Assembly: GCF_016031625.1 (NCBI RefSeq)
Contig: NZ_JACCHP010000005.1
Span: forward strand, 1-64,000
Length of the DNA: 64,000 nt
Direction: 5' to 3'
DNA from: Bradyrhizobium agreste
GTDB lineage: Bacteria > Pseudomonadota > Alphaproteobacteria > Rhizobiales > Xanthobacteraceae
Shown here piece after piece: positions 52,863 through 64,000 of the stretch; within the stretch, counting starts at the first letter, position 1; each line of letters begins with the position of its first letter. The notes beneath the pieces are model-generated. The model was not told where the DNA came from. It worked only from the letters and a program-made list of their open reading frames with translations, and made no database searches. The translations under genes were made by a program, and so were the position numbers.

Positions 52863-52893
52863 AAAACCCCGCGGTGCAAACCGCGGGGTTTTT
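52863..52893 (+). terminator. Rho-independent terminator of hppA
   Basis: A 12-bp stem AAAACCCCGCGG/CCGCGGGGTTTT with a six-base loop, continuing into T-rich sequence, 20 bases after the hppA stop. Confidence 0.9.
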
Positions 52894-52990
52894 GTTTTGG
52901 TGCTATGCCGGTCTATGCCGGTCCTCGACAAGGCAGAATGAGATTGTTAGGTTCTCAACCTTTGAGATGAAGTTCTTTCGGGGACAACCT

Positions 52991-53770
52991 ATGAATTTAC
53001 CGGCAGTGGTACTTGTTGCTCTATTCTGCCTGTTGCTGACGGAAAGCGCGGCGCAGGCTGCAAACACCTCCGAGCTTATCGTCCTGGCCCGGATCAGCGA
53101 ACGGCTGATCGTCGCAGCTTCGGGCGCTTTTTCGCTTTGGCTCGGCTACAGGCTCTTCGAAGCAATAACCGAGAAGCAAAGACAGGCTATTGAGAGTGTG
53201 GCCGCTTTGCCGACGAGCCCGGATGCCGTCGCAGCCGGCCGTGACGAGAGAAGGTCGGCGTTAGAAGCAAAATTGGGCGACGTGCTGAACATCAGAGTGT
53301 CCGATGTTGGACCGGGCGTTTTCTTTGCTCTCTTCGGATCGGTTCTGCTCGGCTATGTGATGTACTCATCCGTAGACCTAAAGTCTCCGGAGGTGATGTC
53401 TGCAAAGCCTTTCGAGGCTCCGAAGCAAGATGCAAAGGCCGTCGGTCCAAACATTCGATTTGAGAACCCAGATCTTCGGATCAGGATCGGTGACAGGGAT
53501 AAGCTGCTTGAGTCCGTGAAGGCCGTTCGGACGCTCGAAACGTACCAGGTGACGGCCGATACGACGGAGGCCGGGAAGCAAAAAATCGCTGAAGCCCTTC
53601 GCTCGCTTTCTTCCGCGAAGGCAGCCCTGGTTGATCTCGGGTTCGGAGAGGGTAGTTTTGCGAAGTATCAATTGCTGAAGGTGAAGTCGCCGGATGAATT
53701 GGCCAAACAAACAAAGGAGGAACTGGACCGGTTCTACAGCATCGATGGGCTGATGAATGGAGGATTGTGA
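52991..53770 (+). CDS. Membrane-anchored exported protein of unknown function
   Basis: 259 residues: a signal-like first segment (MNLPAVVLVALFCLLLTESAAQA), a second hydrophobic helix (about 37-55, LIVAASGAFSLWLGYRLF), a coiled charged stretch, a third helix (about 108-129, VGPGVFFALFGSVLLGYVMYSSV) and a C-terminal polar domain of about 125 residues. That domain probably faces the periplasm. I recognise no family. The next gene starts at its stop (TGATG), so they form a pair. Base composition is clearly lower in GC than hppA and tctC, suggesting acquisition. M at 52967 is an alternative start; the ATG used has CGGGGA ahead. Confidence 0.65.
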   Translation: MNLPAVVLVALFCLLLTESAAQAANTSELIVLARISERLIVAASGAFSLWLGYRLFEAITEKQRQAIESVAALPTSPDAVAAGRDERRSALEAKLGDVLNIRVSDVGPGVFFALFGSVLLGYVMYSSVDLKSPEVMSAKPFEAPKQDAKAVGPNIRFENPDLRIRIGDRDKLLESVKAVRTLETYQVTADTTEAGKQKIAEALRSLSSAKAALVDLGFGEGSFAKYQLLKVKSPDELAKQTKEELDRFYSIDGLMNGGL

Positions 53771-54678
53771 TGCTCGGGCGGTTCTCACTCGGATTACTTT
53801 TTTGCTTTCTGATCTGTGCGCAGGCACCCGCCCAAGACGCCGCCTATCAGGACCACCTCGCGTCCAATACCCGTAAGTTGGTCACCAACCTTCGGCCGCT
53901 CCTGCGGCCGACGCTCCAAGCGTTCGAAGCCTCCATTCTCGACGACATTGATTTTCGCATCGTACCGGATCTCATCTATCAAGGGCTTGCCAGGCGCATC
54001 GGTGGCAAACGCGTTGTTATTATTTACTCCGGAATTCCTTTCATGATGGAGGTGCTCTCAAACTCGATGTTTGTCGGATTGCAAGGCAAGAGAGAGTGCT
54101 ATGAGCGGCACCTTAAGAGTAGCTTGGAAACGTTTGTTTACAATTCAGACCCCAATCATCAGGCGAACAAGCGCCCAGTGTTTCATCCTGCGGCCTATGC
54201 CAATTTCGAGCTATCGTGTGCGGGAGCAGAGCAGATATTTGCAAACATGGATGCAAGACAGCGGCAGGTGGTTGCCGATTTCATCCAGACTTCTATTGCT
54301 GCCGTCATCCTGCACGAGATTGCCCACCATGTGCTTGGACACGTTGACAATCCTCCCGGCCCGGGAATGAGTCCTGCTGCGCTGGAGCGCTCTCGACAAG
54401 ACGAAGATGCCGCCGATCGCTGGGCCATCCGCAAGCTTCTTGAAATGAAGATGTCGTTGCTTCCGACGATTCCGTACCTTCTTATGACGGCGGCGCTGAC
54501 GGACTATACCTTGGAAGCGGAACGAGCATCTACTCATCCGTTAGGCGCGCGGCGAGCGCTGGGGCTGCTCGACAACATTGCAGTAGAGGTCAACAAGATC
54601 GACCCCGATTCGCCGGTTGTCGGACAGGTCAAAGATTTTCGAAAGGTCTTGAACAATATCACCAGTCCTCAGAACTGA
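53770..54678 (+). CDS. Exported metallopeptidase-like protein with HExxH (M48-like)
   Basis: 302 residues with a signal peptide (about 1-22, LGLLFCFLICAQAPAQ). The zinc site is HEIAHH (H182, E183, H186), and E212 and D216 in DEDAADRWA fit the E-x-x-x-D third-ligand motif of M48 peptidases. Otherwise no close family is evident; two cysteines (RECYER, FELSCAG) may form a disulfide. GGAGG precedes the ATG, and the gene starts at the stop of the membrane-protein gene. Periplasmic location places it next to that protein's C-terminal domain, so a membrane-tethered protease is plausible, but this is inference. Confidence 0.7.
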   Translation: MLGRFSLGLLFCFLICAQAPAQDAAYQDHLASNTRKLVTNLRPLLRPTLQAFEASILDDIDFRIVPDLIYQGLARRIGGKRVVIIYSGIPFMMEVLSNSMFVGLQGKRECYERHLKSSLETFVYNSDPNHQANKRPVFHPAAYANFELSCAGAEQIFANMDARQRQVVADFIQTSIAAVILHEIAHHVLGHVDNPPGPGMSPAALERSRQDEDAADRWAIRKLLEMKMSLLPTIPYLLMTAALTDYTLEAERASTHPLGARRALGLLDNIAVEVNKIDPDSPVVGQVKDFRKVLNNITSPQN

Positions 54679-54759
54679 GGCGCCCCTCAAGGCTGGGCCT
54701 TGCTGAGGAGGCCGTAGCGGGGCAGCGTTACACGCTGCGCCGCGTCGAGGACACGAAAC

Positions 54760-61409: not shown

Positions 61410-61997
61410 TTAGTGAACGGGCAACTTGGAAGCATCTTCCACAATTGCAGTGAGACGAGTCAGCACTTCATGAGCGGCTGAGCTCGGAGAAATAGGCTGC
61501 CCGTCCGACGAAGTCGGCGGATCATATTTATCGCCGCGATCCCACACCGGCACGAGTCGAACACTCGCCGCTTTCAGTTCGACAAATTTGCTTTTCTGTG
61601 GGTCTTGGCCGCCCAGTGCCGTGACTTGAAGGGTCCCGCCCGGACCGAGGGTCCCATCAAAGCGCCAAGCCCCTGGTCCCACCCCTAATGCCACAGAGGC
61701 GGGCTCCCTATCAGTGATAGGCTCTAGGCCGTGCAAATCTGCGTTCCGGGCGTGATGGGTGTATCGCAAGATCGGCTTGGTTCGGCGAGCATGACGCATT
61801 TCGCTCCACCACCGATAACTTTCGGGCTCACCCTTGGCCCCTTGTTCTAGCTTTGAATAAACGCGTTGTGCGGCTGTGAGAAGATCCGACCATGCTAGTT
61901 CGATTTCGGTCAACTTCGTCGCCGTATCCATGGCATGAACGGCCGACTTTGCTTGTCCCAGTGCAACCTCAGCCTGCTGAAGCGCGATCGCTTTCAT
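61410..61997 (-). CDS. Protein of unknown function on the island
   Basis: 195 residues from the ATG at 61997, preceded by GAGGTGGG. The sequence is soluble, with an N-terminal helix (KAIALQQAEVALGQAKSAVHAM) and a Trp/Arg-rich middle (SYRWWSEMRHARRTKPILRYTHHARNADLHG) that resembles DNA/RNA-contact or cell-filament proteins only in composition. I recognise no family. It is downstream of the integrase remnant, 25 bases apart on the same strand, and belongs to the tRNA-Pro island. Confidence 0.6.
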   Translation of the reverse strand: MKAIALQQAEVALGQAKSAVHAMDTATKLTEIELAWSDLLTAAQRVYSKLEQGAKGEPESYRWWSEMRHARRTKPILRYTHHARNADLHGLEPITDREPASVALGVGPGAWRFDGTLGPGGTLQVTALGGQDPQKSKFVELKAASVRLVPVWDRGDKYDPPTSSDGQPISPSSAAHEVLTRLTAIVEDASKLPVH

Positions 61998-62022
61998 CCC
62001 ACCTCTGATCTCAATGACCCAT

Positions 62023-62829
62023 TCAAGACTGCCCAGCTCTGTCGCGGTAGTCCTCAAGTTTTTGGATAGCATTCGCCGCCAGCACGCCGCGCCTGGCAAG
62101 ATAGGTATCAATGATCTTTTGTGCCTTATCCACAGTCCAGGTCATCGCCTCGGCGAGCTCCGGCGCCGTCGCCCCAGCCTCAGCTAGCAACGTCGCCGCG
62201 GTGCCTCGGTTGTCGTGGAAGTTTAGGTCACCGGCGCCAACGGCGTCCGAGTCCTCGCGCCAATGATCATTGAAGTATCGCTTGGTGTAGGCCTTGCCGG
62301 TGGGTGTCAACATCACTAGGGCGCCAACGCGGGGCAGGGTATCGAGATGCGCCTTCAGCTCCCGGGTAGCCGGAATCCAAAGCATCTTGCCGGTCTTGCT
62401 AGATCGGATTTGCACGCGTTGCCCATCGTATCGCGTCCAGGCGAACTTGCGAACGTCGCTGGCGCGCATAGCGGTGTTTCGGACCAGGATCATGGCGGTC
62501 ACCATCGCAGGCCGCGCGGTCTTGATGAACTGCTGCTGTAGCTCCTCCGACCACGTCTTATCGGCCCGGTCGCTCTTGTAGAGCCGGTGGAAGGTCGGAA
62601 TTGGGTGATGCTTGATCCGGCGCTGCTCTTTCGCGAACGACAGCACGCGGCATAGAGCCGACATGAGATTGTCTGCCGATCGGCGCGAGGTCTTGCCTAG
62701 CTCCTGGTGCCATGCGAGGGCGTCCGCTGCGAATGCGTCGGCGTCGTCCGCATTGTTGAACGTGTCCTCTGGGACCGTGCCCCACTTCTGCTCAATGCGC
62801 TTGAGCTTCCAGGGATACTGCTTGCGAAA
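62023..62829 (-). pseudogene. Tyrosine integrase, N-terminus lost
   Basis: The frame carries the core-binding part (YPWKLKRIEQKWGTVPEDTF onward) and the catalytic domain with all expected residues: Arg in TAMRASDV, Lys in SSKTGKML, His and Arg in LNFHDNRGTAATLL, and Tyr in IIDTYLARRG. Phage-type integrases of this group have about 50-70 more residues before this; here a TAA at 62830-62832 ends the homology and the first ATG (62664) is well inside the core-binding domain. The breakpoint coincides with an inverted repeat. Probably inactive as it stands, although all catalytic residues are kept. It likely mediated integration at tRNA-Pro. Confidence 0.8.
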
Positions 62830-62920
62830 TTACGGTGACAGTGCACTCAACTGACCTAACGCGCGGCGCTGTATCGTGTCGCAGGGCTTTGCGTCGACCC
62901 AAATGAGTGCACACGGTAAT
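62829..62920. repeat. Imperfect inverted repeat at the integrase breakpoint
   Basis: Left arm ATTACGGTGACAGTGCACTC starts at 62829, exactly where integrase homology stops; right arm TGAGTGCACACGGTAAT ends at 62920 and is its near reverse complement with a small gap. The layout suits the end of a small mobile element or a deletion junction. Confidence 0.5.
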
Positions 62921-63315
62921 CGTAGTGGCACGATCTTGGGTTCGTCGCAGGTGCGGGAACGATCGCAGTCGGCGGTGCTGCGTCGAACTAGCCTCACGTT
63001 GAAATAGGCCAGGACTGTTACTAAGCGACCGAAACACTGCGTCAGTCGCCCCGCTGAGAAGAACTCTTTGGGACAGAAACAAATCGCCCAAAAATTCCAT
63101 CGTGAAATCATCAGGATAGGGCCATCAGTCAGGTTCATAAGGTCATCCGCACTTTTTTGCGTAAAGTGCAAGTGTGAGCGGTCACTCAGTAAGCCATTGT
63201 TTTACCACTCGAAACTGATTCTGTTTTGAAGCCCATTGCGAAAATTTGACAAGGCCGTCAAATCAAACGGTGACGGTCCGGCGAAGGTCCAAGAAATTGA
63301 TTGGAGGACCATGCC
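62921..63315. other. Island DNA with no supportable gene
   Basis: About 395 bases, AT-richer than the core. A minus-strand open frame (62830-63171) continues in frame with the integrase but shows no integrase similarity and starts with TTG, so I do not accept it. A GGAGG at 63302-63306 begins the signals for the next gene. Confidence 0.4.
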
Positions 63316-63489
63316 GTGCGTCGAATGCCTAAATTGAAAGTGAAAGTACCAGGAGCTTCTGTTAGCGCCGACGGCACAATCGGAATTATTGGGGCCATCA
63401 CCCGTCTTAGTGGTCTTATGCCTTGTCTGTCACTTTGCAGCCGTTCGTATGGCTCCGTTTCTTTTCAATTGAGTGTGGGGGATCAATAG
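63316..63489 (+). CDS. Small protein of unknown function upstream of an integrase
   Basis: 57 residues from a GTG with GGAGG nine bases ahead (an ATG three codons in is an alternative). The N-terminus is basic (RRMPKLKVKVPG) and the rest small and hydrophobic. Its stop codon is directly followed by the ATG of the next gene, which suggests coupling. No family recognised. Confidence 0.45.
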   Translation: MRRMPKLKVKVPGASVSADGTIGIIGAITRLSGLMPCLSLCSRSYGSVSFQLSVGDQ

Positions 63490-64000
63490 ATGCTCACTGT
63501 CTCTGCACTGATCGATGAATACATGACGGATCAAACTTCCAAATATCATGCACTCAGCTATCGCGTTCGCCTGAATAACGCTCGGTATCTCTCAAGGATT
63601 AGAGCAGATCGTGGCAATCAGGTTGTGAGTGGAATAACCCGTCGCATGTTGGGCTACTGGTATAAACGTTGGTCCGAGAAGGGCGAGACTTCTGGACGGA
63701 TTTTTATTTCTCAACTTCGCGCCATAGCGTTTCACGGTGTTTTGCAGCGAGACGATTCTGATTGTTACCGCCTCGTACGAATACTGGATACCTTTGAACT
63801 TCCTTCCAGACCCGCGCGCGACGTTCGTCTTACGTTTGCTCACGCTGAAGCAATAATCGAAAGAGCTCATTTTTGCGGATGGTGTTCGATGGCGATTGGT
63901 CAAGCCTTCCAGTACGAACTGCTCATGAAGCAAAAGGATGTCATTGGGGAGTGGGTCCCTGCCGAAGCATTCAAAGGAGCTAGCGATGTTTGTCACGATG
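63490..64000 (+). CDS. Site-specific tyrosine integrase, partial at the window edge
   Basis: An unbroken frame of 170 codons runs off the window. The first 90 residues resemble the SAM-like core-binding domain (LIDEYMTDQTSKYHALSYRV, RRMLGYWYKRWSEKG, GRIFISQLRAIAFHG), and residues about 112-160 the start of the catalytic domain (DVRLTFAHAEAIIERAHFCG, then FQYELLMKQKDVIGEW). The box I position that in relatives I remember as LRQKDVIGEW has Lys here (MKQKD). This is a second integrase, unrelated in sequence to the truncated one and in opposite orientation. Catalytic His and Tyr lie beyond the window. Confidence 0.7.
   Translation, partial: MLTVSALIDEYMTDQTSKYHALSYRVRLNNARYLSRIRADRGNQVVSGITRRMLGYWYKRWSEKGETSGRIFISQLRAIAFHGVLQRDDSDCYRLVRILDTFELPSRPARDVRLTFAHAEAIIERAHFCGWCSMAIGQAFQYELLMKQKDVIGEWVPAEAFKGASDVCHD

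Follow-up and report, generated by a model that had tools for sequence, protein, structure and literature searches.

A recurrent gene pair for a membrane protein and an exported, M48-like peptidase candidate in Bradyrhizobium agreste and on phage-plasmids

The window analysed here, i.e., a stretch of 64,000 nucleotides at the start of a contig of Bradyrhizobium agreste, contains two overlapping genes of low GC content that encode a membrane protein and a peptidase-like protein. These genes, which we refer to as A and B, raise the questions of whether they belong together and, if so, what they might do as a unit. The initial annotation had taken them for an acquired, self-contained module for membrane-tethered proteolysis, possibly serving envelope stress or defence, and had named them as its main candidate for an undescribed system.

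Genes A and B and their insertion site

Gene A runs on the forward strand from an ATG at 52991 to the end of its stop codon at 53770 and encodes 259 amino acids, while gene B, on the same strand, runs from an ATG at 53770 to a stop at 54678 and encodes 302 amino acids. Both were defined by their open reading frames and their homologues, together with hydrophobic segments in the case of A and a match to Pfam Peptidase_M48 in the case of B. These coordinates confirm the TGATG-coupled arrangement initially proposed, in which the stop of A and the start of B have one base in common. With a GGAGG motif 6 bases upstream of the ATG of B, the overlap (GGAGG plus TGATG, 53759..53772, forward strand) is likely to provide translational coupling of the two genes.

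Hydropathy analysis of A yielded three hydrophobic segments (residues 3-21, 29-47 and 106-124), as expected from its earlier description as a three-helix protein. However, the first segment resembles by eye a cleavable signal peptide (AQA/ANTSE), so that a signal peptide followed by two membrane spans, i.e., segments 2 and 3, which bear GYRLF and PGVFFALFG, fits better. The last span is followed by a helical C-terminal tail of about 130 residues, corresponding to the domain of 125 residues that had been noted as periplasmic-looking. This domain is probably periplasmic: if segment 1 is cleaved, the mature N terminus and the tail would both lie in the periplasm, and the loop in the cytoplasm.

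By the same analysis, B carries a strong, export-type hydrophobic segment at its N terminus (residues 1-19) and two weaker segments (82-100 and 167-185). Its zinc-site motifs comprise HEIAHH at 182-187 (H182-E183-x-x-H186), H191 and EDAAD at 212-216 (E212-x-x-x-D216), in agreement with its first description as an exported protein with HEIAHH and E-x-x-x-D, and a further motif, THP-x4-R, lies at 255-262 (H256-x5-R262). The features of A and B are not accidents of this one locus, because homologous pairs elsewhere keep them and because the leave-one-out models described below recover all members.

The GC contents of A (55.1%) and B (54.0%) are below the 65-69% of six neighbouring genes, as had been observed previously, and GC3 is 0.63 and 0.61 against 0.83-0.90 in the same neighbours. 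The pair sits between hppA and a TctC-like gene. When the window was compared by blastn with the locus of a relative (G007, L080), homology ended at 52898, just past the hppA terminator, and restarted at 54716, 44 bp short of where the TctC gene ends. The insertion relative to that genome is thus 52899..54715, i.e., an interval of 1817 bp in the window versus 86 bp in the relative. Its left edge is marked by a terminator-like hairpin of hppA (52863..52892, forward strand), which was kept in all three aligned relatives. The 3' end of hppA was present in 30 of 31 sampled genomes of the genus, the window genome included (confirmed by tblastn). In 27 of the other 29, the next gene is the TctC-like one, which lies on the reverse strand; in one of the remaining two, BamE stood directly after hppA, and in the other no such neighbour was found within 8.5 kb. 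Neither A nor B lay within about 1.5 kb of hppA in any of these 29 genomes, or within 4-9 kb in ten genomes of the genus that were fetched further. The low GC and GC3, together with insertion between syntenic neighbours, support the view that the pair was acquired, and the insert of about 1.8 kb, which holds these two genes only, is indeed self-contained. The insert showed no conspicuous direct repeats at its flanks, and a search for a sigma-70-like promoter gave none.

Several relatives in the genus have other genes in the hppA-TctC interval (L071-L079), which by eye are AhpD-like, haem-peroxidase-like, AraC-like and recombinase genes, and the site therefore tolerates insertions. The idea that it is a defence hotspot was dropped, because the genes of the relatives look metabolic or are recombinases and none is recognisably a defence gene (by eye). 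At the far end of the window, 61410-64000 contains an integrase-like C-terminal frame (62023-62664, reverse strand, by eye) and a frame that is still open at the window end, and GC falls to 0.485 in 63001-64000; this region, about 7 kb from the pair, is probably the edge of a mobile island.

Recurrence and relationships of the two proteins

A and B were found adjacent and in the same order in eight loci, i.e., in the window genome (G000), in five other genomes (G053, G242, G331, G621 and G717), on Klebsiella plasmids and on a Buttiauxella plasmid. By origin, five of these loci are from the window's class, one is from elsewhere in the phylum, and two represent SSU5-like phage-plasmid lineages. 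Identity between lineages was 14-39% for A and B, the exception being the two plasmid lineages, at 54-56%. With B starts chosen by us, the distance from the stop of A to the start of B was -31 to +8 nt in seven of the eight loci. In the eighth, G331, it was 448 nt, and a small exported-looking ORF without a Pfam match (L033 1596-1919) lay between the genes; the tail of A is short there and may have been split off as a protein of its own.

In a set of 149 genomes, A and B were each found in two, the window's own and G053, and in the latter they are adjacent with the same TGATG overlap (the same stretch also occurs in an IMG/VR contig, L015). In a sample of 385 genomes of the class, an A model matched the own genome, G242 and G331, with B downstream of A in both of the latter, and a two-row B model matched the own genome, G460 and G160, the last of which was rejected as a PDZ-M48 protein by eye. 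In a sample of 398 genomes of the phylum, the A model matched the own genome, G621, G643, G676 and G717. B lay beside A in G621 and G717, and no B was found in the 16 and 17 kb around A in G643 and G676, which belong to one genus. Among 46 genomes of the family of G621, the matches of A were G621 itself and, weakly, a fragment at a contig edge in G727, where the 3.5 kb contig lacks B, and in the family of G242 it matched G242 only, of two genomes searched. The plasmid records matched by window A were four from Klebsiella and one from Buttiauxella, and Klebsiella B adjoined A by coordinates in all five; one record from each genus was examined in sequence.

With A as query, B was thus adjacent in seven of ten places other than the window itself, the exceptions being G643, G676 and the fragment in G727. 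Most places keep the two genes together, as the notion of a conserved pair demands. With B as query, the places found by models that did not contain them were G053 and G460, and A lay beside B in one of these two. This second count includes independent places only; the case for pairing is carried by the A queries and the eight loci. That A and B constitute a real, recurrent module is, in our view, well supported.

Membership was checked by leave-one-out searches in which, for each of nine A and nine B proteins, a profile made from the other eight was run against the omitted member, 272 window ORFs and 500 shuffles, with E-values calculated for a database size set to 10,000. All 18 members were recovered (E of 1.6e-6 to 8.8e-43 for A and 3e-8 to 2.1e-49 for B), and the best decoy among the ORFs and shuffles had an E-value of 0.24. 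The strongest values came from the two plasmid lineages and the weakest from the G717 proteins. Residues H182, H186, H191, E212, A215, D216, A219 and R262 were invariant in all nine B rows, and E183 was kept in eight. Hydropathy placed an export-type hydrophobic segment at the N terminus of nine out of nine B proteins, and two membrane spans were present in nine out of nine A proteins. The most conserved part of A was the two-span hairpin rather than the tail, the length of which varies (in alignment A5, the G242 row ends 49 residues before its stop). A mirror-tree comparison of A and B distances gave a correlation of 0.71 (reached by 315 of 40320 permutations), which became 0.18 (1028 of 5040) without Buttiauxella; since the correlation depends on just two related plasmids, it is uninformative about A and B.

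Some further members or relatives depart from the common architecture. A full-length B relative in G460 (L037 398-1378), situated after the apparent end of rpsD (by eye), reads HATAH in place of HExxH, and A was not found in that genome, which is 86% complete. Judging from these residues it is likely to be an inactive descendant, and B can therefore lose a catalytic residue. In G643 (L035 7724-8488), an A-type two-span domain bears TPR repeats as its tail (Pfam), and a related domain occurs in G676 (L120), so that the two-span domain is modular and probably more widely distributed than the A-B pair. Finally, the B protein of G242 (L025 1207-2547) is extended at its C terminus by some 100 residues or more, which are absent from other members.

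Window A belonged to no Pfam family, and its best E-values were 0.019 in PADLOC, 0.1 in NCBIfam and 0.24 in PHROGs. In contrast, window B scored 23.1 bits against Pfam Peptidase_M48 (PF01435), above the cut-off of 20.3, and five of the nine B members matched M48 at E<=1. Of the elements of the M48 zinc site, HExxH was present in eight of the nine rows and E212 and D216 in all of them. Against Lit (NCBIfam PRK09672), window B reached 28.5 bits, where the cut-off is 274; the PADLOC Lit model weakly matched seven of the nine members (E<=1), and a 'peptidase_U41' model weakly matched six. We read B as a divergent exported gluzincin from the M48/Lit/M78 neighbourhood, and as nearer to M48 within it. 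AlphaFold models, for which the input was the window and one viral-contig relative only, were too poor to inform the interpretation (mean pLDDT 49.8 for B and 44.5 for A), and a fold search with this B model (VIA-align) gave a best Z of 5.8, with no M48 chain among the best 50 listed.

When the phylum sample of 398 genomes was searched with a nine-row B model, 121 genomes gave matches at E<=0.001. Full-length matches were limited to the own genome, G621 and G717, all of them rows of the model that match by construction, so that the sample yielded no further full-length B. The next best match scored 46 bits. A was beside none of these weak zinc-site matches in 27 loci fetched, and those examined included, by eye, PDZ-M48 proteins, an ImmA-like protein and a Lit-like protein. 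A contig scan gave matches at three Lachnospiraceae loci (L001, L002 and L003), and the two examined (L001 and L003) were rejected as ImmA/HigA-like by eye, only the zinc site being common.

Genomic context on plasmids and elsewhere

The five plasmids with the pair are 108-112 kb in size and non-mobilizable, and the two examined (one Klebsiella, one Buttiauxella) are IncFIB. In comparisons with phages, the flank of the Klebsiella plasmid gave matches of about 98% to Klebsiella phage records and of 83% to Salmonella phage SSU5. The Buttiauxella flank has the gene order of the Klebsiella one, for which the SSU5-like phage match was tested. In Klebsiella, the pair has a small gene on either side, one adjoining 'regulator' and the other preceding dnaE, and both of these lie on the strand opposite to that of the pair. 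The 3.2 kb around the Klebsiella pair matched 531 plasmid records, of which four contain at least 80% of this stretch; the Buttiauxella record has a diverged pair. Seven other SSU5-like plasmids have, at the same site, either a lipoprotein-type small gene with a second gene, or a single gene of 196 residues, or cspG. More generally, the small genes at the site before dnaE in SSU5-like phage-plasmids (L013 4300-7100, L038, L039, L040, L112-L115) vary by plasmid, as at a position for cargo. The plasmid copies of the pair look like cargo.

Outside plasmids, the pair in G621 has a phage integrase as its neighbour and a G2P-type Rep gene close by, and in G053 there are an integrase (Pfam) and transposases (by eye) near it. 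The mobile carriage expected of superinfection-exclusion genes was thus found for the SSU5-like phage-plasmids, by their flank match, and for G621, by its integrase neighbour. No mobile gene was seen near the pair in G242, G331 (where the contig is only 5.6 kb) or G717, and the genes there are ordinary-looking chromosomal ones by eye. Neither window B nor Klebsiella B matched any phage record, Klebsiella pair DNA did not match E. coli genomes, window B and both G621 proteins were without a match in plasmids, and Klebsiella A, Klebsiella B and G621 B were without one in viral contigs. A search with a six-row B alignment returned nothing beyond the contig already found. When 10 neighbouring or alternative-cargo proteins were compared with PADLOC, nine had no match and one had a marginal match (E = 0.0097).

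Possible functions of the pair

The reading that we favour, tentatively and at somewhat under an even chance, is that A anchors B at the inner membrane, that together they cleave a protein of the envelope, and that they most likely do so as cargo for exclusion or defence. A would sit in the inner membrane by its two spans, with a short cytoplasmic loop and the helical C-terminal tail in the periplasm. B would be exported by its signal peptide, would bind zinc through HExxH...E and would be held at the membrane by the tail of A, which would localise or gate it. From this position B could cleave an envelope protein. The likeliest target would be a protein needed for the entry of a competing phage or plasmid, given the patchy distribution of the pair and its carriage by phage-plasmids and integrative elements; candidates are an ejection or tape-measure protein crossing the periplasm, or a host membrane protein used for entry. 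Patchy spread, optional carriage by phage-plasmids and strong divergence fit such exclusion or defence cargo better than housekeeping, although they do not amount to proof.

The phage exclusion protein Lit (peptidase U49) resembles B weakly around the zinc site. However, Lit cleaves EF-Tu, which is cytoplasmic, whereas all nine B proteins look exported by hydropathy, and the score of B is far below the Lit cut-off. Precedents for exclusion or defence at the membrane are SieA of P22, which is reported to act at the inner membrane on ejection proteins and is carried by a temperate phage (PMC10883804), and SNIPE, which is reported to be located at the membrane and to associate with the tape-measure protein (PMC13190303). 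The pair is like both in membrane location, and like SieA also in its link to temperate phage, but SieA is a single protein that blocks injection and SNIPE a nuclease, whereas the pair has an exported peptidase-like partner. These precedents, the conserved pairing in eight loci, the conserved motifs, export-type N termini and spans, the phage-plasmid and integrase contexts and the rarity (2 of 149 genomes) count in favour of the reading as a whole; the contexts in G242, G331 and G717, the lack of recognisable defence genes at the hppA-TctC site of relatives (by eye), the PADLOC-negative neighbours, the absence of window B and Klebsiella B from phage records, the HATAH of G460 and a distance correlation that depends on two related plasmids count against it. 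With the SSU5-like plasmid p2, Kp1604 is reported to show phage plating reduced by 1-2 orders of magnitude (PMC8969562). However, the five plasmid records in which A or B occurs do not include p2, which has other genes at its corresponding site, so that its phage protection is not evidence for the pair.

A specific form of the favoured reading, which we regard as possible but doubtful, is periplasmic proteolytic immunity, in which a mobile pair with a membrane-held zinc peptidase would destroy incoming phage or plasmid proteins, or the host entry port, before DNA reaches the cytoplasm. In the profile libraries and open-licence literature searched, we saw no defence system in which a protease acts at this stage of entry.

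The M48 relationship also makes it conceivable, at roughly one chance in a few, that the pair serves envelope quality control or stress, with A recruiting B to the inner membrane and B degrading misfolded or mislocalised proteins as BepA does. BepA has a TPR domain after its peptidase domain. B shares with M48 proteins such as this one HExxH, ExxxD, HP-x4-R, an export-type N terminus and a Pfam score above the cut-off, with five of nine members matching M48 at E<=1. Some pairs lie in ordinary-looking chromosomal neighbourhoods, and a related two-span domain bears TPR repeats in G643, both of which would suit such a role. Unlike BepA, however, B matches M48 in the zinc-site half only, has no TPR match (none among the 17 families listed for the nine B members), comes with a partner gene and is mobile and rare. 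Such a rare and patchy distribution is unusual for housekeeping, and the phage-plasmid and integrase contexts also speak against this role. BepA itself, a periplasmic M48 protease, is reported to act on LptD, an outer-membrane protein (PMC8423444).

The conservation of the two-span hairpin of A, rather than its tail, would be expected if A were a protease-triggered effector, i.e., if B cleaved or released A and the spans then formed a pore or perturbed the membrane, killing the infected cell. The short tail of A and the separate small exported-looking ORF between A and B in G331 point the same way. Bacterial gasdermin genes stand beside protease genes, and both proteins of such systems act in the cytoplasm. 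The likeness of the pair to gasdermin operons, the subject of PMC9079055, is that of a membrane-active protein encoded beside a protease gene. In contrast to those systems, B looks exported, and A gave no match to an effector family, nor one to a gasdermin in Pfam or PADLOC. We consider an effector role unlikely. Less likely still, at a little under one chance in ten, is a service to the carrying element, e.g., processing of an envelope protein while the element itself enters, is released or is transferred. The presence of the pair on phage-plasmids, and in a region that also has integrase and Rep genes, would agree with this, but the window pair is alone, with no mobile gene in its insert, and most elements of this kind manage without the pair, only four of 531 plasmid records holding at least 80% of the site and Buttiauxella a diverged pair. 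That A and B are chance neighbours, or that B is an M48 gene of a generic type that happens to adjoin the gene of an unrelated membrane protein, is very improbable: the zinc-site region does match generic proteins weakly in 121 of 398 genomes (E<=0.001), and B occurs without A in G460, but these weak matches reach at most 46 bits and lack A in 27 of 27 loci, the genes adjoin in eight loci, the seven non-own places with B alongside were found by A alone, and leave-one-out controls recover all 18 members.

Neither the profile libraries nor the open-licence papers yielded a described system, or a characterised pair, matching both A and B, and to that extent the pair can still be called undescribed. 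What was known is the peptidase family to which B belongs; the partner A, the pairing and the mobility are new to us. Through the pair, a two-span membrane family that has no name acquires a partner and a role that can be tested. If this role is exclusion of phages or plasmids, proteolysis in the periplasm would be added to the means by which DNA is known to be kept out, and enterobacteria would have, in the phage-plasmid copies, a trait open to selection. Should the role be quality control of the envelope, the pair would be an instance of a horizontally moving M48 relative with its own membrane partner.
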